The notes beneath the pieces were generated by a model that did not search any database, was not told where the DNA came from, and saw nothing but the letters and a program-made list of their open reading frames with translations. A DNA stretch of 19,089 bases. It comes from an uncultured Eubacteriales bacterium (GTDB taxonomy: Bacteria > Bacillota > Clostridia > Christensenellales > UBA1242). The position numbers and the translations under genes are program-made. Location: contig CATZIR010000002.1 of the NCBI GenBank assembly GCA_958420145.1, positions 1 to 19,089 on the forward strand. The letters are read 5' to 3'. Positions 1,626-19,004 of this stretch are shown here, piece after piece (position 1 is the stretch's first letter; every line of letters starts with the position of its first letter).

Positions 1626-1868
1626 ATGAAAAATCAAAACATTAAAATAAATAACAAGAAAGCAAAAATGTACAATGTTGTAAAATCTTACTATAAAGTA
1701 TTGGACGACCTGGCGGCAAGATTGCAACGAGATTATGCTGGTGGGGACGACCATATACCATTTGAGCAAACCGAAGAAGATAGGCTAGCCATTTGCTTTA
1801 TACTTGACTATTTTGACGACCTAAAAGACGAAATAAAATCTTTAAAAAGTAAAGGAAATAAAAAATAA
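1626..1868 (+). CDS. Small acidic helical protein, 80 aa
   Basis: Preceded by AAGGAG with good spacing. The N-terminus is basic (NIKINNKKAKMYNVVKSYYK); the middle and C-terminus are acidic and helical (EEDRLAICFILDYFDDLKDEIKSLKS). Its TAA stop shares a base with the ATG of the FtsK-like ATPase gene (TAATG), so the two are translationally coupled, which suggests a functional partnership such as an accessory subunit. The family is not recognised. Confidence 0.7.
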   Translation: MKNQNIKINNKKAKMYNVVKSYYKVLDDLAARLQRDYAGGDDHIPFEQTEEDRLAICFILDYFDDLKDEIKSLKSKGNKK

Positions 1869-3079
1869 TGGAACAAATTAAAACATTAGACACAAAGGAC
1901 TTAGAGACCGTTTTAGGCAATATGGGACTACCTGTTGCCTTTTCTGGCTTAGATATAAGCCCTTCGAGTGTTCTATATCATTTTACACTAAACAATGTAT
2001 TGGATCTGCCAAAGGTTAAAAAGGTTATACCTTGCCTTTCTACACTCATACACAAAGATATTAAGATTGTAAAAAGCGAGAAAGCATCATTCTGTCTTTC
2101 TATACCAAGAGACAAAAGGGCTTTCCCTACATTTAAAGCAAACCACCTGGCACTAAAAGATAAGCCGGCTGGCGAGATATTGTTTGGCATCAATGAAAAA
2201 GGCGAGCCTATAACACGAAACATTAGGGACACAAAATCAATTCTTATTGGTGGTGCATCTGGTGGTGGTAAATCAGTTTGCCTTTCTAGTATTATATGTT
2301 CGCTTATGTGTTATTCAAAGCCAAGCGAATGTGGGCTTATTCTTATTGACCTTAAACGATGCGAATTCGAGACCTTTAAAAATTCAAATCATCTTTCTAG
2401 CCCTGTACAATTCGAGTATGAGGGAGCATACAACACTTTATGTAATGTAAAAAAAGAAATTGAGAGGCGTTATAAATCAATGCAATTACACGGAATTAGA
2501 AAGGCAACAACTGACGAATACCCTTTACTTATAACCATTATTGACGAGTATGCAGAATTGGCAAGCCATTCAAACAAAAACGAATTAGACCAAATTGTGA
2601 GTTCTATTGCATCTACTGGGCGTGCTTGTAATGTATTTATTATTGTGGCAACACAACACGCCATATCATCAATTATTAGCAATACAATTAAAAGCAACTT
2701 GCAAACAAGAATTGGACTTCGTACAACAAACCTAGCACAAAGTGTTTGTATTATAAATACGAGAGATTGTGTTGACCTTTTAGGTTATGGCGATAGTTAT
2801 ATATCATTTGACGGGGTGGCGGGACTACAACGAATACAAGGTTGTTATGTGGACGAAAACGATATAAGCGAGATGCTAAAAGACCAAAACCTTACCCCAA
2901 CACAAATAGAGCCCCAAACGATTAAAAAACAAACATTCTGGGGCAAAATAAAAGCATTCTTTAATAGATTAAGCGAAAGGGCTTATATATCACTGAAACA
3001 ACGAAAATATGCTGAGCCATACACCGATAAAGAGTTAAACTTTATTGACTGTTGTATTGATGATGATATGCAAATATAA
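1868..3079 (+). CDS. FtsK/SpoIIIE-family DNA translocase ATPase, 403 aa, lacking membrane domain
   Basis: A hexameric RecA-fold motor that would move along or pump double-stranded DNA using ATP. Walker A is at residues 129-136 (GASGGGKS) and Walker B near 222-227 (ITIIDE). The flanking FtsK signatures LILIDLKRCEF (157-167) and STGRACNVFIIVATQ are present. The part before the ATPase resembles the alpha/beta connector of FtsK. Unlike chromosomal FtsK/SpoIIIE there is no N-terminal membrane anchor and no obvious C-terminal gamma winged-helix, so it is a short soluble form such as those found on phages and integrative elements. No relaxase is visible nearby, so a conjugation role is not established; segregation or DNA transport of the element are alternatives. 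It is the last gene of the operon, followed 10 bases later by a terminator. Confidence 0.88.
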   Translation: MEQIKTLDTKDLETVLGNMGLPVAFSGLDISPSSVLYHFTLNNVLDLPKVKKVIPCLSTLIHKDIKIVKSEKASFCLSIPRDKRAFPTFKANHLALKDKPAGEILFGINEKGEPITRNIRDTKSILIGGASGGGKSVCLSSIICSLMCYSKPSECGLILIDLKRCEFETFKNSNHLSSPVQFEYEGAYNTLCNVKKEIERRYKSMQLHGIRKATTDEYPLLITIIDEYAELASHSNKNELDQIVSSIASTGRACNVFIIVATQHAISSIISNTIKSNLQTRIGLRTTNLAQSVCIINTRDCVDLLGYGDSYISFDGVAGLQRIQGCYVDENDISEMLKDQNLTPTQIEPQTIKKQTFWGKIKAFFNRLSERAYISLKQRKYAEPYTDKELNFIDCCIDDDMQI

Positions 3080-4144: not shown

Positions 4145-4483
4145 TTAATCTCCTTGTATCAATTCGTAAATCTTTTCTAATGTTGGTAGTGTGAGTTTAT
4201 TAAAGTCAAATTCATTACAGTATCTTGCAAGGCGAATTTGTTTGTTTCTAGCAAAGTTTTCGCTATATTTAACTTCGTCAAATTCCACAATACGGTCTTG
4301 CCAATAGGAACGAGAAGTGCCATACTCATAGCAAGTTTTACCACTAAATACTTGTGTTTGTTTTTCGCCTTTCTTAGTATATTCTACTTTAATATTTCCG
4401 GCTTTTGTAATTTCTATCACTTTTGCTTTTATGCATTTACAATAGTGGTCGTTTTCTATCATAACTATATCGCCGACTTGCAT
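4145..4483 (-). CDS. Small protein with N-terminal SH3/KOW-like fold, 112 aa
   Basis: The start is supported by a full AAGGAGGT and overlaps the end of the serine recombinase gene by 19 bases. The N-terminal VGDIVMIEND, followed by KAKVIEITKAGNIKVEYTKK, is a five-strand barrel-like pattern of the KOW/SH3 type, with a C-terminal helical part (LPTLEKIYELIQ). The overall plan resembles the protein at 7495-7986 (VGDVVKV ... LPNGRFKTE ... DGTK ... W), suggesting a distant paralogue. Function is unknown; such folds often bind nucleic acid or protein. This is inference from the pattern only. Confidence 0.65.
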   Translation of the reverse strand: MQVGDIVMIENDHYCKCIKAKVIEITKAGNIKVEYTKKGEKQTQVFSGKTCYEYGTSRSYWQDRIVEFDEVKYSENFARNKQIRLARYCNEFDFNKLTLPTLEKIYELIQGD

Positions 4484-5088
4484 TGTTTTACCTCCTTAGA
4501 AATAACTGTTCTACTTACATTTAACAACTGACTTATTTTGTTTTGGCTTATTCCTTTTTTATGCATCTCAACAATATTATCTCTAACTTCCTGGCTTATC
4601 TTTTGTGGTGCACCAAGCACAACGCCTTTTTCTTTAAGCGCCTTTAATTTGTTAGAAGTATTAAAGCCAATAATTCGCTTTTGGAACTCATCAGCCAAAA
4701 AGAATTGAGAAAGTGCCATCCATTCATAAGGGTTAAGTTTCTTGCCACCATAAAGGGTCATACCATTGCTTATAAACTTAATAGATACTTCATAGTCCAA
4801 AGTGATTATATCAACAATATCGAAACAATCTTTATAATCTCTACCAAACCTAGAACTTTCGGTAAATACAACCATATCGCCTGGTTTTAATAAGTCTAGC
4901 ATCTCTTTAAATGCTTGTCGCTCATCGCCACGAACGCCACCAGAAACCCTTTCTTCGAATATTCTATCAAAAGTGATACCACTATGAGCGAATAAATATC
5001 TTTGTCTCTCGTAATCTTGTTGTCTCTTTTTTTCTTTCTCGTCATCTCTTTTTTGTGTAGAAACACGAAAGTAGCCATAAATAGCCAT
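4465..5088 (-). CDS. Serine recombinase (resolvase/invertase type), 207 aa
   Basis: I chose the ATG at 5088 (MAIYGYFRVST) because AGGAG lies just upstream; an 11-codon longer form has no site. The N-terminal catalytic domain shows YFRVSTQ with the nucleophilic Ser at residue 9, an ERVSGG motif, and SSRFGRDY carrying the paired active-site arginines found in gamma-delta/Hin enzymes. The C-terminus (about 165-205) is a Hin-type helix-turn-helix (KKGISQNKISQLLNVSRTVI). At about 207 residues it is the size of small resolvases and invertases, not of large serine integrases. Its own promoter lies at 5158-5186. Because a tyrosine integrase sits at the right end, this enzyme may resolve multimers or invert a segment; no invertible segment was seen. 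Confidence 0.92.
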   Translation of the reverse strand: MAIYGYFRVSTQKRDDEKEKKRQQDYERQRYLFAHSGITFDRIFEERVSGGVRGDERQAFKEMLDLLKPGDMVVFTESSRFGRDYKDCFDIVDIITLDYEVSIKFISNGMTLYGGKKLNPYEWMALSQFFLADEFQKRIIGFNTSNKLKALKEKGVVLGAPQKISQEVRDNIVEMHKKGISQNKISQLLNVSRTVISKEVKQCKSAI

Positions 5089-5157
5089 ATACAAACTCCT
5101 TGTCGATGCCACCTTAAACAAGTGTGGGCTTATTCGTCCTTTCTATAAGGTATAAGC

Positions 5158-5210: not shown

Positions 5211-5241
5211 AAAAAAGAGAGAAACTGACAAATTCCTCTCA
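5211..5241 (-). terminator. Terminator of the long leftward early operon
   Basis: Read on the reverse strand, a GAGAG...CTCTC stem (5240-5236 with 5221-5217), extended by two A-T pairs past a bulge, is followed by a run of six T. It lies just beyond the stop of the RNA-repair gene and before the recombinase promoter. The loop contains TTTGTCAGTTT, a word also frequent at the right-end attachment region. Confidence 0.65.
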
Positions 5242-5250
5242 TTTTTCTTT

Positions 5251-7479
5251 CTATAAGTGATTTTTAGCAATGTGGTCGTAAAAACCATCTCTCAAACTGA
5301 CAATATCTGTCTTGCCATCATAACCTTTCTCGCACAACATTCTAAGATAACCATAGAACTCATTTGCAAGAGGTGTGGTAAGAGCCGAAGTTCGTCTAAT
5401 ATAACCTTGTCTAGTACCATTCTTAGAAACTCGCATTGTCTCATCAGCAACATTTCTCATAAATTTCCAAAAGTTATAGTAAGCACCTTTTAATTTTGTC
5501 ATAAAATTATTTTGGTCGACTATTACAAAGCCCTCAACAAATTGTCCGTTGTATTTGTAATCGTGGTCGGTAACCTCGTTATACCAAGCCAAGAACTCGC
5601 CCCAAGTATTAAGTGTATATGCTTTTTCTTTAACCTTAAAGCCAAAATGTTTGCCTAATTCAACAAGCCCCTCATACCCTAATTTAGAACAGAACAAATC
5701 TCTCTTAATGTCATCTAAAAGTACAATCTCGTTTTCATTTGCCTTAATAATGTGTGGATCATTGTCTTTATCAATAACCTCAAACACAAGAGAAGTGTTG
5801 TTTACTTTTACATAGTTTAAAACATCGTCATAGATGCTTGAATATTTAGTCATAAAGATATTTTCAAAATATTTAGAAAACTCGCCACCAATATTTGATT
5901 TAGAGCAGAACAATAACTTATCGTTCTTTTCATCATAACCAAGAATACCCAAGAAACCATTATATTTTAAGTAGCAATTAACAGGGAATTGTAAAGTGCT
6001 TGAAAGTTTGGCAAGTTCAGTTTCTTTTGTTTCGCCAATATTAAAGAACTTATTGTAAGCCCTTGCTGCAATGGTGTAGTTATCAGTATTGATAAATAAG
6101 CCTCTTGCCTTTGTAGTAATGTTGTTCCAAGTTTTGTCATAGAAAACATTTCTACTAAAATTGAAAGATGAAATATTGTCGAATTTCTTTTCAATAATAT
6201 CTTTCTTGCTATTTCTCAAAGCAACAACCAAGTTCGCAACATCAACAACATTATCAACAACCTTGCCATCGTTTAAAACTGCACTTTGTTCGCTTTCGTC
6301 AACCTGTTCTTTAAAAACCTTGTTTTCAATCTCAATAGGCTTGATGCCATCGTGTGTAATTTCAACAGCCCTTAAACAACCACCAAACTCAACACGACCT
6401 TCTAAATTATAAGCGCTACCTTGTACAATTCCTAAGTGTTGTGGGTTTCTATGCCCGTGAATTTGAATAACATTTCTACCTTCAGCAAAAGCAACTTGAC
6501 AATCGTAAATATCGCCATAGTTTCCAACACCATTGATAAAACAATCAGTAGGAATATAAGCCAACCCTTTATTATGCAAACCACTAACACCAGCGTGTGT
6601 TACAAAATAACATTGTCTATCATATTCAAAGAAAATGCATTGTCTTAACTTTCTATAAAGAACTCTTAAATCTTTTTTATCAAAACTTTCTATTTGTTTT
6701 TGAGTATTTAACATAAATTCTTTTGACCTAACTGGCTCATCATTAGCATAAGCCCATAGCCATTTTTCGTGGTTGCCCTCCAAAAGGCACACGTTAGGTT
6801 TATCTTTAATTGAAAGCAAAAACTCTATGATTTTATCGTTTTCAATACCTCTGTCAATATAGTCGCCAGTAAAGATATAGTAAGTATCGTCCTTAATTTC
6901 ATCAACCAACTCGTTAAGGACAGTGTAACAACCGTGAATATCGCCAATAACACAAACTTTATTGTATTCGCTTAAATCAACTGAGCGATAGTCGGTTTCT
7001 TTCTCAAAGTCATCTCTTGTGATAACTTTAATACCACTAGGTATCTTTTGAGTAGCAAAGCGAGAGTAATAAAGGTCAATAGCACTCTCCGGTACTTGTT
7101 TAATCTCTGGTCTTTGTTTATTCCAAATCTTTGCTTGTTCAATAGGTATATCAGTAAAGTCAACACAAAACATTCTATATCTATACTTTTCAGCAAGAGA
7201 TTTATATAAATTCATTTCGCTTGTTTTAGAGTTGCAAGCATCAATAACGGTAAATTCGCCCTTGCTCATACGATATTCTAAAATGTCGAATAATGTAGCC
7301 CAAGCCTGCTTATTAACAGATTGGTCTATATTCCATTTACCATCTTTATCTATAATAGGGCTACGATATAATAATCTAATCGTATCAGCACAAAGAGTAT
7401 AAGGCAACAAGCCTTTTTTCTCAATCCAGGTCGATTTACCACAACCTGGTGTACCTCTTAATAAAACTAAAATTCTCAT
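5251..7479 (-). CDS. Trifunctional RNA repair enzyme: polynucleotide kinase - phosphatase - RNA ligase, 742 aa
   Basis: Three domains are clear. (1) Residues 1-155: a P-loop kinase with GTPGCGKST at 9-17 and a later RPE...QVPE region, like the polynucleotide 5'-kinase of T4 Pnkp. (2) About 174-385: a calcineurin-like metallophosphoesterase with GDIHG (179-183), GDYIDRG (205-211), GNHE (235-238), HAG (295-297) and HGH (341-343). (3) About 440-742: an RNA ligase nucleotidyltransferase with ARGLF (458-462), KFFNIGE (477-483), KYNG motif I with candidate nucleotidyl Lys505, FEV motif III (566-568), EGFV motif IV (649-652) and KLK motif V (662-664). The ligase part resembles T4 Rnl1. The domain order matches bacterial Pnkp (the Clostridium thermocellum enzyme is about 870 aa), but no Hen1 methyltransferase gene is adjacent. 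It would heal and seal RNA cut by ribotoxins, such as tRNA cleaved by host defence nucleases. Last gene of the early operon. Confidence 0.92.
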   Translation of the reverse strand: MRILVLLRGTPGCGKSTWIEKKGLLPYTLCADTIRLLYRSPIIDKDGKWNIDQSVNKQAWATLFDILEYRMSKGEFTVIDACNSKTSEMNLYKSLAEKYRYRMFCVDFTDIPIEQAKIWNKQRPEIKQVPESAIDLYYSRFATQKIPSGIKVITRDDFEKETDYRSVDLSEYNKVCVIGDIHGCYTVLNELVDEIKDDTYYIFTGDYIDRGIENDKIIEFLLSIKDKPNVCLLEGNHEKWLWAYANDEPVRSKEFMLNTQKQIESFDKKDLRVLYRKLRQCIFFEYDRQCYFVTHAGVSGLHNKGLAYIPTDCFINGVGNYGDIYDCQVAFAEGRNVIQIHGHRNPQHLGIVQGSAYNLEGRVEFGGCLRAVEITHDGIKPIEIENKVFKEQVDESEQSAVLNDGKVVDNVVDVANLVVALRNSKKDIIEKKFDNISSFNFSRNVFYDKTWNNITTKARGLFINTDNYTIAARAYNKFFNIGETKETELAKLSSTLQFPVNCYLKYNGFLGILGYDEKNDKLLFCSKSNIGGEFSKYFENIFMTKYSSIYDDVLNYVKVNNTSLVFEVIDKDNDPHIIKANENEIVLLDDIKRDLFCSKLGYEGLVELGKHFGFKVKEKAYTLNTWGEFLAWYNEVTDHDYKYNGQFVEGFVIVDQNNFMTKLKGAYYNFWKFMRNVADETMRVSKNGTRQGYIRRTSALTTPLANEFYGYLRMLCEKGYDGKTDIVSLRDGFYDHIAKNHL

Positions 7480-9078: not shown

Positions 9079-10158
9079 CTAAAATGGCAAATCATCATCG
9101 CCAAAAATGTTTTTAATCTCGTCATCATCGATGGGCTGTAAATCTAAATTAGAACTCTGTTTGTCCCAATCTAAACTTGCTTGGGCATATTCTTTTTGTT
9201 CATATCTCTTATAGATTTTATCGGCATCAGTTTTTGATATTTTAGGGGCTTGTTCATAAGTTTTTGTTTCTTTATCGAAAATCAAGCCAACAATTCCACT
9301 GCCATTTCCTTTTGTTTTTAAAACCTCAATAAAACCATCGCAAGCATCATAATCAAAACCACACCTTGCACAATCTTGTTTGAATTTGTCTAAAATCTTT
9401 TCTTGTCCTTTAAGAACAACAATATAGTCTTTTCTATAAAGAGCAATCAAATTATACGATTTATCGCCAAGAGTAGATGTACCCCTTGCACTTTTAACAG
9501 TTAAACGAAAGCCATTGCTTGCACTTTCTTTGTTAATATGGGTAACTAACAAGCCAACCATATTTAGTTCCAACAATTTATTTCTTAATAGAGTAATTGC
9601 ATCTTCTTGCCCTCTAAATAAATCTTGGTCTTTTATATACACTTCCATAAAGTTGTCTATGAGACAAAATTTACAATTAAGTTCTTTTCCACAATACTCG
9701 ATCCAGTCAAGTATGGTGTTTAAGTCTCTTTGCTGTTTATGGGAGTTAAATAATGTAATATTTTTACCAATACCATTCGTTATTGCTTGCTCAACACTTT
9801 CATTTACATAAAAATCTGCTATATTTGTTTCGTGTCCATTGGTGTCTACAAAGGGTATTGTTATAAATTCGCCTTTTTTACCATTTTGTTGCATAATTAA
9901 AGCCTTATAACTTTCGTTTGTATGTTCACTGGCATAAACACAACATTGATAACCTTGCTTACAGGCGCTTTTTAAAACCGAAGAGGTTAAAACCGATTTA
10001 CCAGTATTCGTATCAGCCTCGATACTATTTAAACCAATCTCTAAGCCTTTGGTGTAATAATCTAAATCTTTAAAACCCCAAAGTATTCTCATTAAACTTT
10101 TTCGCTCATAAGGAATATCATTAAACCTTGTTGCAAATTCTGCTATATCTTTTCTCAT
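9079..10158 (-). CDS. DnaB-type replicative helicase / RecA-fold ATPase with SSB-like acidic tail, 359 aa
   Basis: A RecA-fold ATPase of the DnaB/Twinkle superfamily. Walker A is A48 to S55 (ADTNTGKS), Walker B lies in CKFCLIDNFMEV (162-173), and a downstream THINKES segment with RLTVKSARGTSTLGDKSYN matches the sensor and arginine-finger region of phage helicases. At 359 residues it lacks the usual N-terminal DnaB helical domain, having only a short leader with RILWGFKDLDYYTKGL before the P-loop. It would unwind DNA at the element's replication fork after loading by the product of the adjacent upstream gene. The C-terminus is DDDEIKNIFGDDDLPF, whose last residues are the same acidic-hydrophobic tip as the element's SSB. 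AAGGAG supports the start. Confidence 0.88.
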   Translation of the reverse strand: MRKDIAEFATRFNDIPYERKSLMRILWGFKDLDYYTKGLEIGLNSIEADTNTGKSVLTSSVLKSACKQGYQCCVYASEHTNESYKALIMQQNGKKGEFITIPFVDTNGHETNIADFYVNESVEQAITNGIGKNITLFNSHKQQRDLNTILDWIEYCGKELNCKFCLIDNFMEVYIKDQDLFRGQEDAITLLRNKLLELNMVGLLVTHINKESASNGFRLTVKSARGTSTLGDKSYNLIALYRKDYIVVLKGQEKILDKFKQDCARCGFDYDACDGFIEVLKTKGNGSGIVGLIFDKETKTYEQAPKISKTDADKIYKRYEQKEYAQASLDWDKQSSNLDLQPIDDDEIKNIFGDDDLPF

Positions 10159-10163
10159 AAGGC

Positions 10164-10940
10164 TTATTTCTCCTTATCTGGTATTTCATCGTTCAACCAA
10201 GTAGAAAAGTGAGGTAAGTATTGTTTAGGTCTACCTTTGTTGCCATCTTTACCAGTTTCTTCAGCCCAAGCCTTTATGTGTTTTTGTAAAAGCATACTTA
10301 TTCGTTTAGCCTTATCTAAAATATCGTCTTGTGTTTTTAATGTTGTTAGTTTTCTATTCCAAGTCTTTTTCGCTTGCTCCTTACCAACTTTACGAGGGTA
10401 TATAGCCCATATTTTTTCAAATAGAGTTAATATATACTCATTTTTATTAAATTTAGGGGTGTCAGTGAGCGAATGCGAAACGGTCTCATCGCCATTAGGC
10501 GAATTTTCTTTTAGAAAACTACTATTATTAAAACTACTAGAATTGTTAGAACTAGAAGTAGTTTGAATTTTCTTATTATTATTTATATTATTAAAACTAC
10601 TTTCTTCATTAAAACTACTTATATTTTTATTTATATTGGCATCGTTCGTATCCGTTCGTATGCGTTCGCATTCGTTCGCATCATCTTTTTTATGCCACCT
10701 ACCAAGTGCAATTTGTCTATTCATTTCACACTTTTCTTTATATCGTTCGTTGTTGCTATCAACACTTGCTTTTATAAAGTTAAATGAGATTTCAAGTATT
10801 TGCTCATCGAATGTTGGAACAACACCGTGCTCGTTATATTCAATAACTGCTCGCATTAACTTGCCAAATTGTTCATTTGTTAGACTTTTTGTTTGTTCTA
10901 AAATCTCAAAATACATAATCACACCTCGTTTACTTGCCAT
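10164..10940 (-). CDS. DUF6291-like replisome organizer / helicase loader, 258 aa
   Basis: I chose the ATG at 10940 because GGGAGGT lies 7 bases upstream; it overlaps the preceding gene by 11 bases. A second start at 10916 (MYFEIL) also has a site. The N-terminal part (MASKRGVIMYFEIL through LTNEQFGKLMRAVIEYNEHG) resembles DUF6291 proteins of phage replication regions. The middle (about 95-150) is a low-complexity Asn/Ser linker encoded by repeat-rich DNA. The C-terminal part has IWAIYPRKVGKEQAKKTWNR, the common C-terminal signature of phage helicase loaders. Its place directly upstream of the DnaB-type helicase supports loading of that helicase at the origin. The linker DNA carries tandem 10-bp repeats, so the origin may lie in this gene, as in lambda O. 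Confidence 0.82.
   Translation of the reverse strand: MASKRGVIMYFEILEQTKSLTNEQFGKLMRAVIEYNEHGVVPTFDEQILEISFNFIKASVDSNNERYKEKCEMNRQIALGRWHKKDDANECERIRTDTNDANINKNISSFNEESSFNNINNNKKIQTTSSSNNSSSFNNSSFLKENSPNGDETVSHSLTDTPKFNKNEYILTLFEKIWAIYPRKVGKEQAKKTWNRKLTTLKTQDDILDKAKRISMLLQKHIKAWAEETGKDGNKGRPKQYLPHFSTWLNDEIPDKEK
10514..10620. repeat. AT-rich repeats inside the loader gene (candidate DNA unwinding element)
   Basis: The word AAAACTACT occurs four times (10515-10523, 10530-10538, 10593-10601, 10611-10619), three of them as TTAAAACTACT, in a strongly AT-rich stretch. It encodes part of the Asn/Ser linker and lies next to the 10-bp iteron array. A duplex-opening region is one explanation; neutral slippage in low-complexity coding DNA is another. 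Confidence 0.5.
10643..10682. repeat. Four tandem 10-bp iterons inside the loader gene (candidate origin)
   Basis: Units are CGTTCGTATC, CGTTCGTATG, CGTTCGCATT and CGTTCGCATC in perfect register, with a further CGTTCGT at 10744-10750. A 10-bp period is not a multiple of three, so the encoded residues change frame from unit to unit (DANECERIRTDTNDAN). This points to selection on the DNA rather than on the protein. The flanking AT-rich repeats make this a lambda-O-like origin candidate. Confidence 0.6.
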
Positions 10941-11130
10941 AGTTTGCACCTCCCTTTAAGGGTAGTTCAACTATTTCGTTTGGTTTAGAGTTTATAAATT
11001 GTCTAGTAGGTACACCTAAAATCATTTTTTCTAGTACCCAAACTTTGCCAGATGCCATCTTTACTAAACAAGCATCGTTCTTTTCCCAGCAACTCTCAAT
11101 TAGGCTGGTGTTAATCATTACATTTTTCAT
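10930..11130 (-). CDS. Small hypothetical protein, 66 aa
   Basis: An AAGGGA site precedes the ATG by 7 bases. The sequence has alternating short strands and turns (SGKVWVLEKMILGVPTRQFI; NEIVELPLKGG), suggesting a small beta-rich fold. One Cys pair is far apart and there is no membrane segment. No family is recognised. The 3' end overlaps the start of the loader gene and supplies its GGGAGGT ribosome binding site, so the two are coupled. Confidence 0.65.
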   Translation of the reverse strand: MKNVMINTSLIESCWEKNDACLVKMASGKVWVLEKMILGVPTRQFINSKPNEIVELPLKGGANYGK

Positions 11131-11170
11131 ACATACATCCCTTTTACTTTACTTAAATTTGAATTTTGCT

Positions 11171-11276
11171 TTTAAATGCCCTTAAATCGCACGAAAAGGT
11201 TTAAGTCGAACAAATTGTCAAGAGAAAGTGTTTTGTGGCTCTATGCGATTGTTTTGGGGCAAATTTGGGCATATTT
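11171..11276. repeat. Imperfect nested inverted repeats in the 181-base gap upstream of the replication genes
   Basis: The gap 11131-11311 has no gene. Left arm TTTAAATGCCC (11171-11181) and AATCGCA (11186-11192) are mirrored by TGCGATT (11244-11250) and GGGCATATTT (11267-11276). On the reverse strand the right arm also reads as tandem AAATATGCCC / AAATTTGCCCC. The gap could hold a regulatory site or an alternative origin. A TTGACA on the reverse strand near 11222-11217 has no matching -10. Confidence 0.45.
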
Positions 11277-11302
11277 GACATTAAATTCAGTTTTAATTTC
11301 AA

Positions 11303-11323
11303 AAATATGCTCTATTTGTCAGT
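11303..11323 (-). repeat. 21-bp direct repeat, copy 1
   Basis: The 21 bases here (starting AAATATGCTCTATTTG and ending TCAGT) are identical to 12449-12469. This copy spans the 3' end of the winged-helix gene; on the reverse strand it begins ACTGACAAATAGAGC. Both copies lie just after or between genes of the recombination module. Confidence 0.7.
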
Positions 11324-11662
11324 AAAATGGTTATAAAAAGAGATTAAAGGCTTTTTGGTTTCTTCTAAGTCCTTAATAATGCCATCTATGTAATTCCATT
11401 GATGAATACATCGTTCTAGGTCATTCTTGTTAAGGCAGGCGAAGTAACCCTTTTGGTCTGGTGTAGCAACGATAGGTCTTTTCTTTTTTATTAGATTGAT
11501 TGTATCTCTAATTTTTCTATCGCTAGTGCTGTTATAGGTCCAGCCAAGATGAGTACAGATTTCTTCTTTGGTAACATTTCTATGACAATCTTTCAAAAAA
11601 GCATAAATCTTATTTGCGATTTCTTTTTGATTTTCAGTTATAGGTTTCTCAAAGTTTTCCAT
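11312..11662 (-). CDS. Winged-helix DNA-binding protein, 116 aa
   Basis: AAGGAG precedes the ATG. Residues about 8-70 have a winged helix-turn-helix pattern: ENQKEIANKIYAFLKDC, then NVTKEEICTHLGWT, SDRKIRDTINLIKKKRPIVA and a wing (TPDQKGYFAC). The C-terminal 40 residues form a helix (ERCIHQWNYIDGIIKDLEET) and a Lys-rich tail. Similar small winged-helix proteins are frequent in phage early operons as regulators or origin-binding factors. The promoter or site it acts on is not known; the repeat-rich gap just downstream in transcription is one candidate. Confidence 0.75.
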   Translation of the reverse strand: MENFEKPITENQKEIANKIYAFLKDCHRNVTKEEICTHLGWTYNSTSDRKIRDTINLIKKKRPIVATPDQKGYFACLNKNDLERCIHQWNYIDGIIKDLEETKKPLISFYNHFTDK

Positions 11663-11680
11663 ACTTTTCTCCTTTAATCT

Positions 11681-12430
11681 CTAATTATTAACATTTTCAG
11701 TTTCAGCATCTATTAAGGCTTGTGCCTCTAATCGTATTTCTTGTCGAAAAAAGTAATACATATCGTAGAGCATTAGCCAAAATAGTTTCACTCTCGCACA
11801 ACTTTGTTCAAATCGTGTTTTATTTTGAGTGTCGTATTGTATAACATCGAAAGCATATTTATTAGGTTGCACCCAACTCGATACAGTTGCATACACAGTG
11901 TTCTTACAAGATTTTTCTTCAAGGTCGCCTTGTTTATTGTAGTAGTGGAACTTATAATTGATTAGGTCGTATAGACTATAACCAAATTCCAAAACTAACA
12001 CGAATTTGCGATAACCCTTTGCGAGTTGTCTTTCAAACTCTCGTTCAAGTCGTTCTCGGTCGTTCATTACATTATTACAAAACTCACTTGCACTGCCTTT
12101 TCTTTCATAAGCAACAACATTCGTGTAATCATAAACCTTGTCGCCAAAGTGCACACTAAATGTTATGTCGCCCTCTTTAAGATTTTCAGTATTTGCTTTC
12201 TTGTCTTTAACTGCAATTTCTCTTGCGATGCCAAAGTAGTCGCAAACCTTTTCAACCCAATCGTCTTGCTCTCGGCTATCGATTTTGATTTTGAGGTAGG
12301 GTAAGAACAATGTAAAGAATGCTTTGCCTTGCACCCAACTCATATCAAATCGGCTATCGAAAGTAGGACTGCTTATTGTTTTCTTTTTGTCAAGTTTGAG
12401 TTTGTTAATCGCTTGCTCATACTTAATCAA
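11681..12430 (-). CDS. ERCC4-type (XPF/Mus81-like) structure-specific nuclease, 249 aa
   Basis: The start is a TTG at 12430, eight bases after AAGGAG; no ATG fits. The ERCC4 nuclease core is visible: KIDSREQ with D51, R53 and E54; EGD at 86-88; and VAYERK with E109-R110-K111, which is the GDxnERK metal-binding signature of XPF/Mus81 nucleases. It is followed by ERLEREFERQLAKGYRKF and a strand VLVLEFG. The residue normally Asp three positions after ERK is shifted (GSASE), a small departure from consensus. Such enzymes cut branched or flapped DNA. It sits between the SSB and the winged-helix gene, so it probably processes recombination or replication intermediates of the element. Confidence 0.82.
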   Translation of the reverse strand: MIKYEQAINKLKLDKKKTISSPTFDSRFDMSWVQGKAFFTLFLPYLKIKIDSREQDDWVEKVCDYFGIAREIAVKDKKANTENLKEGDITFSVHFGDKVYDYTNVVAYERKGSASEFCNNVMNDRERLEREFERQLAKGYRKFVLVLEFGYSLYDLINYKFHYYNKQGDLEEKSCKNTVYATVSSWVQPNKYAFDVIQYDTQNKTRFEQSCARVKLFWLMLYDMYYFFRQEIRLEAQALIDAETENVNN

Positions 12431-12448
12431 ATTCAGTTCTCCTTTTAT

Positions 12449-12469
12449 AAATATGCTCTATTTGTCAGT
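12449..12469 (-). repeat. 21-bp direct repeat, copy 2
   Basis: Identical to 11303-11323. This copy lies in the 57-base gap between the SSB and ERCC4-nuclease genes, just upstream of the nuclease's ribosome binding site. The two copies are in the same orientation and bracket the nuclease and winged-helix genes. Confidence 0.7.
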
Positions 12470-12487
12470 TTTACATTTTAAAAAAAG

Positions 12488-12862
12488 TTAAAATGGTAAA
12501 TCATCATCATCGGTGTTGTCGTAAAGTGGTGGGTGGTTTTCAGTATTTGTTGTAGGCTTAGCATCGTCTTTTTTGCCACTACCCTCAAACACCTCAAAGT
12601 CCCAACATATAAAGTTGTAGTACATTTGCTTTTTGTCGCTATCATACTTATTTGTGCATTCGACTTCAAGCATTTTAATCATTTCATCGCCTTTAAGGTC
12701 TTGTGCCTTATCGTGGGCTTTACCTATAAAGCGAACATAACTACTGAAGTCTTGGACATAATCATCGTCCTTTTTCTTGCTAGTAGATATTTTTATTTCA
12801 GTAAATTTGTCTTTTTTTCTAATTTCCCAAACTTTTGCAAGTCTGCCATTTGCGAAACTCAT
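12488..12862 (-). CDS. ssb: Single-stranded DNA-binding protein, 124 aa
   Basis: The N-terminal 95 residues fit an OB-fold: MSFANGRLAKVWEIR, then KFTEIKISTSKKK, SSYVRFIGKAHDKA, IKMLEVECTNKYD and YYNFICWDFEVFEG. A short Asn/Pro/Asp linker leads to the terminal DDDDLPF, the acidic tip by which bacterial SSBs recruit partners. At 124 residues it is shorter than chromosomal SSBs (about 170-180). It would protect ssDNA during exonuclease, annealing and replication steps encoded next to it. Its ATG overlaps the preceding stop by four bases. Confidence 0.88.
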   Translation of the reverse strand: MSFANGRLAKVWEIRKKDKFTEIKISTSKKKDDDYVQDFSSYVRFIGKAHDKAQDLKGDEMIKMLEVECTNKYDSDKKQMYYNFICWDFEVFEGSGKKDDAKPTTNTENHPPLYDNTDDDDLPF

Positions 12863-13158
12863 TCTAATTCTCCTTTTAACTGCCTTTCTAATTTTTCAAG
12901 TTCAGTTTCTAATTTTTTAATTTGTGTTTTTTGATATTCAACATCATCGAATAAAGACATTGTCTCGTCCATACAAACTTTAAGTTTGTGAGGTAAGTTC
13001 ATTTGGCTAACCATTGCTTTATAAACTTCGTTTGCTCGCAACAAGAATTTGCCAGCATCTTGCAACTCTTTAATCAATTTTCGTTGATTGTAGCATTTAG
13101 TAATCAATTCCTCTCGTGTTAGTTCTTCAAGTGGAACTGTTTGCTTTTTCTTAGCCAT
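12859..13158 (-). CDS. Small coiled-coil protein between annealing protein and SSB, 99 aa
   Basis: All-helical: LEELTREELITKCYNQRKLI then LRANEVYKAMVSQMNLPHKL and a C-terminal heptad-like stretch (YQKTQIKKLETELEKLERQL). The N-terminus is basic. The ribosome binding site is weak (AAAGGT), and the 3' end overlaps the SSB start by four bases, so translation is linked. The family is not recognised; an accessory of the recombination module is a reasonable guess from position. Confidence 0.65.
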   Translation of the reverse strand: MAKKKQTVPLEELTREELITKCYNQRKLIKELQDAGKFLLRANEVYKAMVSQMNLPHKLKVCMDETMSLFDDVEYQKTQIKKLETELEKLERQLKGELE

Positions 13159-13160
13159 AA

Positions 13161-13967
13161 TTATTTACCTTTACGAGCCTTAGCAAGTTCTTTAATCTTT
13201 GTGATAACTTTATTAACCTCATCTGGTTTGACCTCTTTAATGTCCATATAGCCAAGTTCGTTAAGAATTTCTTTAAGGTCAGTATCGATAAGGCTTAAAG
13301 CACCAAGAGTAGCATAGATTGTTTTGATTTGGTCTTTTGTAATCTTATTAACCTTAGTGTCTTTTTGGGTTTTTAACTTTTTAATACCCTCATTGTCTTC
13401 AAGGTCAACAGTGTACATATCGCTTATGCCACCAATATTAAGTATTGCATCGCCAAGTGCTCTTTTCTTTGCGATTTTCATAACTGTGTTTGCCAAACTA
13501 TCTGGTGTCTCGCTTTTTTCGTATTGGTTTACATATTTCTTTTCTTCAGTATTTGCACAACCAACACCTTCAGCAACTTTAATGTCGCCAAAATATAATT
13601 CGCAAGCCCATTCCCAAGCATAGTAGTTTCTTATTGTTTCAACAGTTTCGTATGATTTAGTTTTTTCGTTGTATTTTTTGTATTGTTTAGATTGATTAGC
13701 AACATAATCTCTATTTAAGAGTTTATATCTAGGTGTAAGCCCTAAATAAAGTTGTATTTTTTCAAAGCCAGGTTTAAGTAGGCAAGGTTTATCAGTTCCT
13801 GGTATTTGTCCAAAGTCAACACCATCAACAAAGTCGTTTTTGATAAACTCTTTAAACTTTTTAACTTTTTCAGCCCTTTCAACCATCATTGTTTCTGGTA
13901 GGTTTTGAATAATACTTGTCCCATTAACAACTTGAATTTCCATAGATTGTTTATTATCAGTTCCCAT
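13161..13967 (-). CDS. Putative single-strand annealing protein (Rad52-superfamily-like), 268 aa
   Basis: Residues about 45-72 carry DFGQIPGTDKPCLLKPGFEK and about 159-175 carry ANTVMKIAKKRALGDAIL followed by a SDMYTVDLED element. This pair of motifs marks a widespread phage protein type found beside exonucleases and SSBs and thought to be related to Rad52-like annealing proteins; that assignment is from memory and context. It would pair complementary ssDNA strands in recombination. A C-terminal segment (200-268) is a Lys-rich helical extension. Its neighbours are an exonuclease upstream (stop and start share one base) and an SSB downstream, a classic phage recombination module. An AAGGAG 13 bases from the ATG supports the start. 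Confidence 0.72.
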   Translation of the reverse strand: MGTDNKQSMEIQVVNGTSIIQNLPETMMVERAEKVKKFKEFIKNDFVDGVDFGQIPGTDKPCLLKPGFEKIQLYLGLTPRYKLLNRDYVANQSKQYKKYNEKTKSYETVETIRNYYAWEWACELYFGDIKVAEGVGCANTEEKKYVNQYEKSETPDSLANTVMKIAKKRALGDAILNIGGISDMYTVDLEDNEGIKKLKTQKDTKVNKITKDQIKTIYATLGALSLIDTDLKEILNELGYMDIKEVKPDEVNKVITKIKELAKARKGK

Positions 13968-14578
13968 TATAATTTAATGTCTCCTTTTATTTCTTTAAAA
14001 ATATTTAGATATTTGTAGAATAAGTCCTCGTTGACCTCAATAGGTATGAGCCTATGTTCGCCATTATCATATAGTTGTAATATGTATAATGCATCGACTT
14101 TTTGGTCTGGGTGTCTTTCATTCCACATAATTCGATAAGCATTTAATTGTAATTCACTTCTTAATTTGCTTATGGTTTTAGATGTCTTTTTGTCGATAAT
14201 TGCCAACTTGCCATCTATAAACTTAACAAGGTCTATCGTTCCAGCAAAATCGTGCTCGATTGAGTAAAGTTTTTCTTCACTTGCAATCGGTAAGGTTGGG
14301 TAAGAATTACGAAAGTTTGCATAAGCATAAACATAATTTATAATTTCGTAATTTTCTTGTACCCATTCATCATCTAGCAAATCGATTAAGCCATATTCAT
14401 AGTCTTCAGTTTTTTCGTGTACAAGTGTGCCTCGCTCAGCCGCCGCCTCAATATTCTTTTGAGGTATGCCTTCGAGTGCAATAACATCAACAGTTTTTAA
14501 AATATCACTCACACAAGGCTTTTGTTCGCCAAAGTAGTAGTAAATATGTTTTTCACTATCGAAATAAAGTCCTTCCAT
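13967..14578 (-). CDS. PD-(D/E)XK exonuclease of the RecB/Cas4 type, 203 aa
   Basis: The nuclease motifs appear in order: RGTLVHE with H54, EEKLYSIEHDFAGTIDLV with E101/E102 and D116, IIDKKTSK with D129 and K131, and ELQLNAY with Q144 and Y148. This is the full RecB-family set (H, E, D, DxK, QxxxY). No cysteines suggest an iron-sulphur cluster, so it is not a Cas4. It would resect double-stranded DNA ends to give ssDNA for the adjacent annealing protein. The ATG follows AAGGAG with ideal spacing; the stop shares a base with the annealing protein's start. Confidence 0.87.
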   Translation of the reverse strand: MEGLYFDSEKHIYYYFGEQKPCVSDILKTVDVIALEGIPQKNIEAAAERGTLVHEKTEDYEYGLIDLLDDEWVQENYEIINYVYAYANFRNSYPTLPIASEEKLYSIEHDFAGTIDLVKFIDGKLAIIDKKTSKTISKLRSELQLNAYRIMWNERHPDQKVDALYILQLYDNGEHRLIPIEVNEDLFYKYLNIFKEIKGDIKL

Positions 14579-14775
14579 TACAACTCCTTGATATTTACAA
14601 AGATTGTTTCATTTGTTATATCTATTTGTTGTTGTAATGCTTTCTTGTTGTTTGGGTCATTTAATTTACTTTCGGTCTTTGAAAGTTCAACATAATCTTG
14701 TAAGAGTTTAATTGTTTGTTGAGCAACCTTAATTTGCTCTGGGCTTTTATAACCCTTTTTATTGGTATCTGCCAT
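14578..14775 (-). CDS. Small helical protein, 65 aa
   Basis: TAGGAG supports the ATG. The product is hydrophilic and helical (IKVAQQTIKLLQDYVELSKT; KALQQQIDITNETIFVNIKE), with a basic N-terminal tail. No family is recognised. Its stop codon shares a base with the exonuclease start, so it is translated with the recombination module. Confidence 0.65.
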   Translation of the reverse strand: MADTNKKGYKSPEQIKVAQQTIKLLQDYVELSKTESKLNDPNNKKALQQQIDITNETIFVNIKEL

Positions 14776-14787
14776 TTTTCTAATCTC

Positions 14788-15156
14788 CTAATTAAATGAT
14801 TTGTCGTTTCGGTCAACACCAGCATAAGCCAATACAAATTTGTCTAGCACGGTGTAACCATTCATTGATTTACCTTGATAGGTAACAATCTTAAATTTAT
14901 TGTCCACTTCGCCTATAACAAAGTAGTGGTATAGGTCAGTAGCAATATTGATTGATCCATCAGTATTTCGCCACCATAGTGGGCTATTCAATATCATTTG
15001 TTTAACATTGAATTTTTTGCATCGTTGTAGCAATCGCTCTTTGGCGTGCTTTGTTAAGATATAATTGTGTGCAATGTGTTCTATCTTTTTCCTTGATATA
15101 AGACTTACTGGTGCTCTTCCAACCATTCGGCAAACCAACTCTTGTCTTCGTGGCAA
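14788..15156 (-). CDS. Hypothetical protein, possible DUF4258/RelE-like fold, up to 122 aa
   Basis: The start is uncertain. A TTG at 15156 has GAGG ten bases upstream; an ATG at 15126 has no clear site. Both overlap the upstream zinc-ribbon gene. From residue 33 (YILTKHAKERLLQRC) the sequence has the T-HA-R-xx-R pattern of DUF4258-type small proteins. It is followed by strands (LYHYFVIGEVDNKFKIVTYQ) and an acidic or neutral end. Some members of that fold group are mRNA-interferase toxins, but no antitoxin partner is evident and the catalytic residues cannot be confirmed. Function remains unknown. Confidence 0.6.
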   Translation of the reverse strand: MPRRQELVCRMVGRAPVSLISRKKIEHIAHNYILTKHAKERLLQRCKKFNVKQMILNSPLWWRNTDGSINIATDLYHYFVIGEVDNKFKIVTYQGKSMNGYTVLDKFVLAYAGVDRNDKSFN

Positions 15157-15560
15157 TAATCTTTTGCCTCTTTGTCGATTTTGTCCTTGTCGAGTTTTCT
15201 TGCTTGCTCTAATTCTCGTTTAAGTATCTCCTCAATTTGCTCTTTCGTAAAAGAGTGGACTAGATAGCCATTTATTTCAATGGTATCAGTATTTTCCTCG
15301 CCTATAAGCAATGCATTCTCATAGGTCGCATTTTCGTTTAAACAGAAATCACAAGCGCCATTATGGTCTTCATCATAAAAATATTCATCACACACACTAC
15401 ATTTATCTGCCTCTACAAACTCGCCACCACAACTACAATTATCTACAAATGTTTGAGGGCAAGAACGCCACCCAACACCGGTATCGTAGCCAAAGTCTTC
15501 AGTATATGTAGGCAAATCGTCTTCTTCGCAAAGTTCACCACATCTATTGCAAACATACAT
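15105..15560 (-). CDS. Zinc-ribbon protein with charged C-terminal helix, 151 aa
   Basis: I chose the ATG at 15560 (MYVCNRCG) because GAGGTGG lies 6 bases upstream; a GTG three codons earlier lies inside that site. Cys pairs CNRC (4-7), CSC (about 43-45), CSVC (about 54-57) and CDFC (about 70-73) suggest two zinc ribbons. The C-terminal half is a highly charged helix (KEQIEEILKRELEQARKLDK) ending WFAEWLEEHQ. Such proteins are common in early phage operons, with unknown roles that may include binding nucleic acid or protein. The 3' end overlaps the next gene. Confidence 0.75.
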   Translation of the reverse strand: MYVCNRCGELCEEDDLPTYTEDFGYDTGVGWRSCPQTFVDNCSCGGEFVEADKCSVCDEYFYDEDHNGACDFCLNENATYENALLIGEENTDTIEINGYLVHSFTKEQIEEILKRELEQARKLDKDKIDKEAKDYCHEDKSWFAEWLEEHQ

Positions 15561-15561
15561 A

Positions 15562-15738
15562 TTAGCCACCTCGCATTTTCTTTAATAATGATAGAAAAGA
15601 TATTCGCTTGTTAGTTAGGTCCAGCATCGTTAATAGATGGGCTTGCAATTCCATCAACTCATCAAGTGAGAGATGTGCAATCGCACCAAGCATTGTCTTT
15701 TCTTGCTTTTCTAAATCTAACCCCTTTGACTTTTTCAT
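15562..15738 (-). CDS. Small protein of the early operon, 58 aa
   Basis: A short gene with a GAGGT site five bases before its ATG, which lies one base after the stop of the Cro-like gene at 15740-15931. It ends one base before the ATG of the zinc-ribbon gene. The product has a basic start (MKKSKGLDLEKQEKTML), a central helix (AIAHLSLDELMELQAHLLTM) and a basic end (LLKKMRGG). It is probably a two-helix protein. The exact packing between neighbours and the good ribosome binding site argue that it is real. Confidence 0.68.
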   Translation of the reverse strand: MKKSKGLDLEKQEKTMLGAIAHLSLDELMELQAHLLTMLDLTNKRISFLSLLKKMRGG

Positions 15739-16764: not shown

Positions 16765-17307
16765 ATGCATCAAACAATAGGTCAAAGAATGTCTTACCTT
16801 ATGAAACAAAAAGGTATAACAAACATTGAAATGGGCGAATTGCTAAATGTTGACCCAAGTTATATTGCAAAGTTTAAGAACGATGCAAGGCGACCTAACA
16901 CATATCAAATCGATAAAATTGCTAGACGACTTAATGTGACGACCGATTATTTGCTTGGCAATGAGGCTGTTGGCTTACCTTTTTATGTCGACATTCTAAA
17001 AACAAACGAAAGACAAGGCATCAATCTTATGAGTGGTATTTCGAGCGAGAAACATTTTTCTCTGCATAATGTTTGGAAAACCATAAATGAGTTAAAAAAA
17101 GATGACTTGCTTATATTCCAAAAGGATATAGATATAATAAATAATAAAATATATATAATATCATATAATAAAGAGCAAGTAATTTTGGGTAGAGTTTTCG
17201 ACAATATGCTTTTCTTTGATAATGGAATGCCACCAGTTGACATTTCTAACAAGGATCAATATTGTGTGCTAGGTAGACTAATTCGAGTTGAAAGGTACTT
17301 TAACTAA
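16765..17307 (+). CDS. XRE repressor with degenerate LexA/S24-like C-terminal domain, 180 aa
   Basis: Residues 3-66 form an XRE helix-turn-helix (IGQRMSYLMKQKGITNIEMG, then ELLNVDPSYIAKFKNDARRP and ARRLNVTTDYLLG). The C-terminal 70 residues follow the strand order of the S24 peptidase fold (DLLIFQKDIDIINNKIYIIS; VILGRVFDNMLFF; YCVLGRLIRVERYF). However, there is no GxSM nucleophile segment, and the position of the usual catalytic Lys reads ILGRV (140-144), so it seems unable to self-cleave. GAGGAGG precedes the ATG, and the stop shares a base with the integrase start. It may act as a second, non-cleavable regulator or a sensor responding to another signal. Confidence 0.78.
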   Translation: MHQTIGQRMSYLMKQKGITNIEMGELLNVDPSYIAKFKNDARRPNTYQIDKIARRLNVTTDYLLGNEAVGLPFYVDILKTNERQGINLMSGISSEKHFSLHNVWKTINELKKDDLLIFQKDIDIINNKIYIISYNKEQVILGRVFDNMLFFDNGMPPVDISNKDQYCVLGRLIRVERYFN

Positions 17308-18590
17308 TGAGCAAGGCTTACAAAGTATTTCGTTGCCCCACTTGTAAAAGAGATGTAACAGCCCACAAAGATGGCAGAAAGGACTTTTGTAATAAATGTA
17401 ATACTGAAGTCAAATTAAGATGCTGGGGGCTAAGGTTTAGAATACAAGAGGAAGGCAAGGTTGTTCATAAGAATATGGTAGGCTATCGTACCGAGAAAGA
17501 CGCTAACGATGCTTACTTACAATTTATGTCTACTTATAAGAAACCAACAAACCCAGTCGGTGCACCAATCTACAAATTAAAGATTGAGGACATTTTCCCT
17601 GTCTACCTTAAAGTTAAGGCAAGCGAGGTTAAGCAAAGCACTTATTATGATATTATTAAATGTTTCAATACCAACATTTTACCATACTTTACTGGTCGAA
17701 TTGTAACCACAATAACGACACAAGACATTAGAGATTGGCAAGACTTCTTAGTTTCAAAGGGCTATGCTCTTAAAACGAAACAAAAGAATAGAGCCTATTT
17801 AAACAATTTATTTGATTACCTGCATAAGGAATATGGTATTGAAAATGTAGTTGAGCGAGTAAAAGGTTTCAGCAAGAAGTTAGAAACCATCGCCCCAGTA
17901 GAAATGAATATAATTGAGCCAAACGAATACCAAGAGTTTGAAAAGGTAGTTGATGACTTGCACGATAAAACAATGTTTAACATATTATATTTATGTCAAA
18001 CGAGAAAAGGCGAAATGTGTGCATTGACTTGGAATGATTGGCTAGGCGACAAACAAAAACTAAACATTGACAAAACATTCTCTCGTATCTCATTCGATGG
18101 AACACAAGACCAATACCCAGTTCCTAAGGCGAGTGTTATAAAAGAGTTTAATGTTGGGCAAAAAAGCAAATACATTGTCCATTCGCCAAAAAGTACAAAT
18201 AGTGTGAGAAAGATTGATTTGCCAGATAGTACAATCAATTATCTACAACAACTATACGATATTCGCTCAAAAGAGCAAGGGTTTAGCAACGATGAGTTCA
18301 TATTCGGTAAACGAGGCTTATTTATGAATTACACCACTCTATCTAATAGATTTGAAAAATATAAGATGCAATCGAATGTTAGTCAAAAAGTAAGAGTGCA
18401 CGATTTAAGGCACTCTGGTGTAAGTTTGCTAATTAACACATATCAAAATAGTTCATCTAACATAAACACTCTACAATTAGAGTTTATCATCGCTGAGAGA
18501 ATTGGCGACACAGTCGAACAAGTTATTAAAACTTATGGACACTTATTCAAAGGTATGCAATCAATAGTGGCTAAAAACATTAAATTGTAA
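17307..18590 (+). CDS. int: Tyrosine recombinase / integrase with N-terminal zinc ribbon, 427 aa
   Basis: The protein starts with a four-Cys zinc ribbon (C10, C13, C28, C31), then an arm-binding region (GLRFRIQEEG, GYRTEKDANDAY) and a SAM-like core-binding domain (about 92-180). The catalytic domain shows R233 in QTRKGE, K295 in SPKST, H365-xx-R368 in HDLRH, D401 at the usual H/W position and the nucleophile Y410 in KTYGHLF. All key residues expected for strand exchange are present, apart from Asp in place of the second His/Trp, which varies in the family. It would insert and, with a directionality factor, excise the element at the tRNA-Gly 3' end 270 bases downstream. It is co-transcribed with the two repressors. 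The added zinc ribbon is uncommon among phage integrases and may bind the arm-type repeats. Confidence 0.95.
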   Translation: MSKAYKVFRCPTCKRDVTAHKDGRKDFCNKCNTEVKLRCWGLRFRIQEEGKVVHKNMVGYRTEKDANDAYLQFMSTYKKPTNPVGAPIYKLKIEDIFPVYLKVKASEVKQSTYYDIIKCFNTNILPYFTGRIVTTITTQDIRDWQDFLVSKGYALKTKQKNRAYLNNLFDYLHKEYGIENVVERVKGFSKKLETIAPVEMNIIEPNEYQEFEKVVDDLHDKTMFNILYLCQTRKGEMCALTWNDWLGDKQKLNIDKTFSRISFDGTQDQYPVPKASVIKEFNVGQKSKYIVHSPKSTNSVRKIDLPDSTINYLQQLYDIRSKEQGFSNDEFIFGKRGLFMNYTTLSNRFEKYKMQSNVSQKVRVHDLRHSGVSLLINTYQNSSSNINTLQLEFIIAERIGDTVEQVIKTYGHLFKGMQSIVAKNIKL

Positions 18591-18606
18591 AGAAAATCAC
18601 AAAAAA

Positions 18607-18622
18607 TAATGATTTTTCAAAA
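18607..18622 (+). repeat. 16-bp repeat shared with the lysogeny control region
   Basis: TAATGATTTTTCAAAA here is identical to 16274-16289, which lies between the two switch promoters. Here it is just upstream of the outward promoter at 18639-18667. It is also near a CACAAAA / TTTTGTG stem (18598-18604, 18625-18631) that lacks the T-run of a terminator. Confidence 0.7.
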
Positions 18623-18638
18623 TATTTTGTGAAAATAG

Positions 18639-18667
18639 TTGACTTTGTCAATTTAATCTGCTATATT
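18639..18667 (+). promoter_or_regulatory. Outward-facing promoter at the right end
   Basis: TTGACT (18639-18644), 17 bases, TATATT (18662-18667), with a predicted start near 18674. It reads through the attachment region towards the tRNA genes. The only reading frame after it is a 30-codon ATG frame at 18680-18772 that lacks a ribosome binding site. Confidence 0.72.
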
Positions 18668-18709
18668 GTTATCATACTTATGGGAGCAAAAGTAAACCGA
18701 GAGCGAGAT

Positions 18710-18857
18710 TTACGGTACACCTTACGGTACAAAAACACGGAATTGCCAAGTCAGTTTCAGTTTAGTCAGTAAGTAAAAGTTCCAAAATGACACATAGTCA
18801 AAGAGTGTGTACTGACAGTCAGTTTCAGTTTAATATTAACTGACTAGGTTGTCAGTT
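18710..18857 (+). repeat. Attachment-site arm region: direct repeats and palindromes
   Basis: Two TTACGGTACA repeats (18710-18719, 18722-18731) are 12 bp apart. Two identical 16-bp words AGTCAGTTTCAGTTTA (18749-18764, 18817-18832) lie 68 bp apart. A perfect palindrome ACTGAC-A-GTCAGT spans 18811-18823. An inverted pair AACTGAC / GTCAGTT (18838-18844, 18851-18857) surrounds six bases (TAGGTT) directly before the tRNA fragment. This layout fits integrase and excisionase binding sites at attR. It fills most of the gene-free stretch 18591-18923. Confidence 0.75.
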
Positions 18858-18860
18858 CTT

Positions 18861-18879
18861 AATCTCGTCTTCCGCTCCA
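18861..18879 (+). other. tRNA-Gly 3' end fragment, putative attR core
   Basis: AATCTCGTCTTCCGCTCCA matches the 3' half of the T-arm plus acceptor stem and CCA of bacterial tRNA-Gly (5' acceptor GCGGAAG). No 5' part of that tRNA precedes it. Sequence identity to tRNA breaks down just upstream, where CAGTTCTT replaces the expected GGGTTCG. This marks the crossover between element and host. Confidence 0.8.
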
Positions 18880-18923
18880 TTTTTTTTATAAAAGGGGTTT
18901 AACCTACCAAGGAAAAGAATTAT

Positions 18924-18997
18924 GGCACCATAGCCAAGCGGTAAGGCTCGGGTCTGCAAAACCCTCATCCACGGTTCGATTCCGTGTGGTGCCTCCA
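18924..18997 (+). tRNA. tRNA-Cys (GCA)
   Basis: A 74-nt cloverleaf. Acceptor GGCACCA pairs fully with TGGTGCC (18987-18993), followed by discriminator T (typical for tRNA-Cys) and encoded CCA (18995-18997). Anticodon GCA is at 18956-18958 and the T-arm loop reads TTCGATT. It belongs to the host Gly-Cys-Leu cluster, with its upstream neighbour now disrupted by the element. Confidence 0.96.
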
Positions 18998-19004
18998 TTA
19001 ATAT

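Follow-up and report, generated by a model that had tools for sequence, protein, structure and literature searches.

A predicted phage-family RNA repair protein with Pnkp-like healing domains and a ligase closer to fungal Trl1 than to T4 Rnl1

The window analysed here, a stretch of 19,089 nucleotides from an uncultured Eubacteriales bacterium, carries on its minus strand a kinase-phosphatase-ligase gene (5251..7479) that was recognised by Pfam and PHROG matches and encodes 742 amino acids in an uninterrupted ORF from ATG. The locus raises the question of which nucleic acid such a protein would heal and seal, by what chemistry at the 3′ end, and to which of the known repair systems it is related. 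A sequence-only reading had described an Rnl1-like ligase fused to healing domains, placed the gene at the end of the early operon of a mobile element, and proposed that it counters host ribotoxins.

Kinase, phosphatase and ligase domains in one polypeptide

The 5′-kinase domain occupies residues 1-164 (6988..7479, minus strand, as are all parts of the gene), with the P-loop GTPGCGKST at residues 9-17 and an AAA_33 match over residues 4-141 (Pfam, E 3e-14). It is followed by a calcineurin-type phosphatase domain at residues 166-389 (6313..6984), in which we found the motifs GDIHG (179-183), GDYIDRG (205-211), EGNHE (234-238), THAG (294-297) and HGHRN (341-345), and of which residues 174-255 match Metallophos (Pfam, E 1.1e-13). 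A linker predicted to be flexible, residues 393-411 (6247..6303; pLDDT <50 in the model), leads to the ligase domain, residues 412-742 (5254..6246), which consists of a nucleotidyltransferase core and a Trl1-like C-terminal subdomain. Residues 457-668 match RNA_lig_T4_1 (PF09511) over the entire profile (1-227 of 227, E 1.6e-33). The ligase motifs are KYNG (motif I, 505-508; 5956..5967), which contains the predicted adenylylated lysine K505, FEV (566-568), EGFV (649-652) and KLKG (662-665), so that K505, F566, E567, E649, K662 and K664, the residues that mark the PF09511 core, are all present. When 18 catalytic and pocket positions were compared across 73 relatives, 17 were invariant (73/73) and the remaining one, F566, was kept in 72.

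An AlphaFold2 model made from a 40-row alignment had a mean pLDDT of 90.0 and a pTM of 0.55, and the relative placement of the domains in it is therefore not to be trusted; its individual domains match the CthPnkp kinase, the CthPnkp phosphatase, and Trl1 or T4 RNA ligases. No PADLOC family matched the protein. The motif positions, the Pfam matches and the invariance among relatives confirm that one polypeptide contains kinase, phosphatase and RNA-joining domains with the expected catalytic residues in place. Every motif that the sequence-only reading had named, including K505, was found where it was expected, and the profile search gave the ligase domain its nucleotidyltransferase match to PF09511.

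The healing half resembles Clostridium thermocellum Pnkp in having a kinase followed by a calcineurin-type phosphatase, and its best structural matches are 4gp7 and 4j6o, whereas the ligase differs from that of Pnkp in belonging to PF09511. The bacterial Pnkp model TIGR04075 gave 58.4 bits against a cut-off of 750, over residues 4-299 only, and the matches listed in the structure search with the model included no bacterial Pnkp ligase, which still leaves room for kinship. These Pfam and structure matches support a Pnkp-like healing half joined to a different type of ligase, as had been suggested from the sequence. A Pfam scan of the 21 larger ORFs in the window, which spans part of the element, found no Hen1.

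The protein shares with T4 Pnkp and Rnl1 the same three predicted activities and the PF09511 core, but T4 uses two proteins and a HAD phosphatase, whereas the window protein is one chain; the T4 phosphatase profile PF25109 matched T4 PseT and was not listed for the window protein. The earlier remark that T4 splits these jobs is correct for T4. As the fused architecture is common in phages, the contrast holds against T4 alone.

From what is known of these families, repair would proceed in four steps. An RNase cut would leave a 2′,3′-cyclic phosphate and a 5′-OH; the calcineurin-type domain would open and then remove the 3′-end phosphate; the P-loop kinase would phosphorylate the 5′-OH using an NTP; and K505 would be adenylylated and the AMP passed to the 5′-phosphate, after which the ligase would seal the break. 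Such steps are supported for related enzymes by bacterial Pnkp-Hen1 and Pnkp1-Rnl-Hen1 (PMC4411300) and by T4 Pnkp and Rnl1 (PMC3400036). We consider it probable that the phage-type fusion is a self-contained heal-and-seal enzyme of this kind, acting on tRNAs that are cut during infection or induction.

The surrounding element and the phage family

The gene had been said to be carried by a mobile element, and its surroundings bear this out. A tyrosine integrase gene (17307..18590, plus strand) lies beside tRNA-Cys (18924-18997) and tRNA-Leu (19005-19089), both of which look host-encoded, and repressor-like genes are located between 15933 and 17307 on both strands. A long minus-strand block of recombination and replication genes leads to the repair gene, and the early-type genes in it (9079..15569) include a DnaB-like helicase, a replication initiator-like protein, an ERCC4 nuclease and a PDDEXK exonuclease. 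Just downstream of the repair gene is a serine recombinase (4465-5121; Resolvase PF00239, phrog_125 invertase), and an FtsK/SpoIIIE-like ATPase (1868-3079, plus strand; phrog_1358) may serve the element in transfer or as an accessory function; its matches to the PADLOC SspH and mad8 models are read as generic ATPase similarity. Virion proteins were not clearly identified among the window ORFs scanned. The element is likely a phage-derived prophage, and its host, judging from the relatives, would be a Clostridia-like bacterium of low G+C content.

No att-like repeats were found, the 14-mers of 18591-19089 that recur elsewhere in the window being AT-rich. The 15-mer GTCAGTTTCAGTTTA occurs twice between the integrase and tRNA-Cys (18750-18764 and 18818-18832), with an extra GTCAGTT at 18851, and the two copies are possibly integrase arm sites.

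Directly 3′ of the repair-gene stop codon is a hairpin resembling an intrinsic terminator (5217..5240, minus strand), which fits the proposed position at the end of an operon, but five further minus-strand ORFs come after it. The region has 11 terminator-like sites versus 6.3 expected, and the hairpin is therefore weak as lone evidence.

Nuclease and helicase genes share the strand of the repair gene, and the protein could accordingly be taken for one that mends DNA ends while the phage replicates or recombines. DNA ends can likewise be processed by kinase and phosphatase domains of this type, and 3′-phosphatase and kinase activities can in general act on DNA. The ligase core, however, is the PF09511 one of RNA ligases, a class to which the structurally solved relatives that the profile search returned also belong; repair of DNA ends is thus very improbable, and the substrate would be RNA rather than DNA.

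The protein belongs to a phage family that is known but little studied. It matches PHROG 8238 from end to end (residues 1-738 against profile positions 1-734 of 737, E 1.1e-207), and members in Twort, SPbeta-like and Brochothrix phages agree with it in length and in the order of domains, align with it at 36-43% identity along 99% of the length and, in four named phages, carry the same 17 catalytic and pocket residues; no defining difference from them was found. A relative was present in 162 of 50,697 phage records, and in 107 of these the matching place spans 80% or more of the repair protein. The 60 matches listed include SPbeta-like, Alicyclobacillus, Twort-like and Brochothrix phages, and many of the listed phage relatives are annotated as RNA ligase and others as hypothetical protein. 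In a protein collection, 4353 of 7997 scored candidates passed E 0.001, and all three Pfam domains were found in the 120 listed. The kinase-phosphatase-ligase fusion is therefore widespread and already filed in databases. No characterised PHROG 8238-type member was found in the literature searched, most subscription papers being beyond the reach of the search.

We examined 28 viral loci of relatives and 41 genome loci, the latter mostly filed under Lachnospiraceae or other Clostridia. A family-level draw of 250 host genomes contained a full-length copy in the centre genome only, the other 56 of the 57 tallied genomes having partial matches that all lie within residues 1-421, and a genus draw around another bearer contained the repair gene in 15 of 101 genomes. 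A quick tree with long branches was built from a subset of the relatives, its 73 rows being 53 loci, 19 proteins from the listing and the protein of the window; the last of these groups with rows of the set P0002-P0021. Phage and chromosome labels were assigned from gene neighbours and are doubtful for L029, L030 and L036; with these labels, 17 of the 20 chromosomal loci form one set (SH-aLRT 95) amid phage rows, which fits capture by hosts. Among the genome loci, L033 and L035 lie near cellular genes, for instance those for AraC, radical SAM and AMMECR1 proteins.

The ligase domain compared with Trl1 and T4 Rnl1

The ligase of the repair protein is closer to fungal Trl1 than to T4 Rnl1. By structure and by profile, it matches the Trl1 ligase over the full length, including the all-helical C-terminal subdomain. 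T4_Rnl1_C (PF20819), the C-terminal domain of T4 Rnl1, matched T4 Rnl1 itself at 1.8e-39 and was not among the hits listed for the window protein, for which E values up to 10 were admitted. The description as Rnl1-like therefore holds for the PF09511 core and has to be changed for the rest of the domain. The likeness to Trl1 is confined to the ligase: the whole fungal enzyme has the order ligase-kinase-cyclic phosphodiesterase (PMC6592678), in contrast to the kinase-calcineurin phosphatase-ligase order of the window protein (kinase-Metallophos-ligase by Pfam). The Trl1-type identity of the ligase, together with the sharp test that follows from it, is what the present analysis adds.

The test concerns the 3′ end. 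In Trl1 a sulfate is bound by Asn150, His227, Arg334 and Arg337 (PMC6592678), and these residues align with N507, H576, K672 and R675 of the repair protein, Arg334 being replaced by lysine; the last two belong to the stretch K672-F-M-R675 (5455..5466, minus strand), aligned to Arg334 and Arg337 of ctTrl1. All four residues are invariant (73/73 relatives). In T4 Rnl1 there is no histidine at the H576 position. These likenesses, with the full-length Trl1-type ligase, are the basis for a different chemistry, in which the phosphatase would mainly open the cyclic phosphate, the ligase would need or tolerate a terminal 2′-phosphate as in the fungal tRNA ligase, and the junction would keep the 2′-phosphate for another enzyme. 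We regard this route as possible but doubtful. The phosphatase active-site set is complete, as in phosphate-removing enzymes, and the Trl1-bound sulfate is, according to its source, no more than a surrogate for a substrate phosphate (PMC6592678). Furthermore, the alignment of T4 Rnl1 stops short of the last two pocket positions, and an ungapped extension puts His250 and Lys253 there. Because these are also basic, the last two positions may serve RNA ligases generally, which lowers the odds of a 2′-phosphate intermediate; as judged from the alignment, the pocket contrast with T4 Rnl1 would come down to one point only, the absent histidine.

The distribution of the 2′-phosphotransferase KptA had appeared to favour a retained 2′-phosphate. 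KptA is present in 20 of 41 host genomes versus 35 of 250 in the family draw (p 2e-6, calculated after the ligase-bearing centre had been taken out of the 250). In a single genus draw it is present in 9 of 15 ligase-bearing versus 16 of 86 ligase-free genomes (p 0.0017). Among genomes of at least 3.0 Mb, however, the values were 8/14 for ligase-bearing and 6/9 for ligase-free genomes, the latter a small group from the 20 genomes G330-G349 (7/20 KptA-positive at any size). Genome size is a likely cause of the association, and KptA co-occurrence was set aside as support because the link is not apparent at this size. Among the 27 viral records KptA was not found (0/27).

Read from the residues in place, the complete predicted phosphatase site argues for a T4-like 3′ end from which both phosphates would be removed, and the pocket shared with Trl1 speaks for a phosphate at that end having some part in the reaction.

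Companion genes and the candidate RNA target

In whole viral records, many of which are fragments, Thg1 (PF04446) was above the cut-off in 10 of 27 and RlaP (PF10127) in 6 of 27; after merging the viral side at 95% identity, these numbers were 6/19 and 5/19, respectively. RlaP lies directly downstream of the ligase in L013, L015 and L016, which represent two contigs (Pfam confirmation for L013), and Pfam places both Thg1 and RlaP among the neighbours at viral locus L013. RlaP and phosphatases have been tied to phage RNA ligases, with calcineurin-like phosphatases in a few jumbo phages (PMC7824862). tRNA genes were found at 9 of the 28 viral loci and at 10 of the 41 genome loci. That some viral relatives carry Thg1, RlaP or arrays of tRNA genes makes tRNA repair the best reading, and tRNA would be the main target.

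The frequency of Thg1 was compared with that in a control of 12 ligase-free records, which were reached via the terminase of one ligase-bearing phage and merge to 5 groups. None of the 12 was above the cut-off and 1 was below it, giving p 0.017 for 10/27 versus 0/12 unmerged. With the merged value of 6/19, p was 0.059 versus 0/12 and 0.15 versus 0/7. The excess of Thg1 over this small control is therefore suggestive only, not being significant after near-copies were merged. Of the 50,697 phage records, a collection sampled differently from the 27, 125 contain a Thg1 relative.

Several other arrangements were seen near the ligase gene. On the 253 kb viral contig IMGVR_UViG_3300028591_000074, a ligase, RlaP and Thg1 block stands at both ends (L015, L016) and could be either an assembly repeat or a true duplication. 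At five genome loci the ligase gene is followed on its 3′ side by a tRNA-Pro (cgg) gene of opposite orientation, at a distance from the ligase match of 74 bases in L048 and of 1.3 to 7.2 kb in L033, L040, L043 and L051. The phage-type loci L012, L014, L017, L024, L028 and L059 have in common a nearby aminotransferase class V gene (Pfam: L017), which is cysteine-desulfurase-like by eye and perhaps has to do with tRNA modification.

The same records can be read as pointing to another RNA, such as phage or host mRNA, rRNA or the products of self-splicing introns. The stretch examined had no tRNA gene in 19 of 28 viral loci, 17 of 27 viral records had no Thg1, and neither Thg1 nor RlaP is present among the window ORFs scanned. 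Given that Thg1, a tRNA enzyme, accompanies the ligase in the other 10 viral records, a main target other than tRNA seems unlikely.

With tRNA as the favoured target, counter-defence would be the benefit to the phage. The proposal that the enzyme counters host ribotoxins is plausible and is helped by the companions of some viral relatives, but support from nucleases of the PrrC/RloC type is absent. When co-occurrence with anticodon nucleases was surveyed as the sequence-only reading had proposed, PF13166 was above the cut-off in just 2 of 41 ligase-bearing host genomes, and a PrrC/RloC association thus found no support. At E 0.001 PF13166 was found in 25 of 41, the matches beyond those 2 genomes being partial and under the cut-off.

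A more far-reaching interpretation, which we hold to be improbable at present, is that a tRNA ligase of the fungal type is at work in phages and in gut Clostridia. In it a Trl1 sealing domain with its phosphate pocket would sit on bacterial Pnkp healing domains and work through a 2′-phosphate intermediate, and Lachnospiraceae would have taken it up on one or more occasions as an RNA-repair gene of the chromosome. If that were true, the phage enzymes would be a source or a sister group of the fungal tRNA-splicing ligase.

Healing and sealing are thus combined in one 742-residue protein that is present in many Firmicutes phages, and a single purified protein could show whether phages undo tRNA-cutting defences partner-free. 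The Trl1-like ligase domain connects a fungal splicing enzyme with phage repair, and the 2′-phosphate question becomes directly testable beyond fungi.
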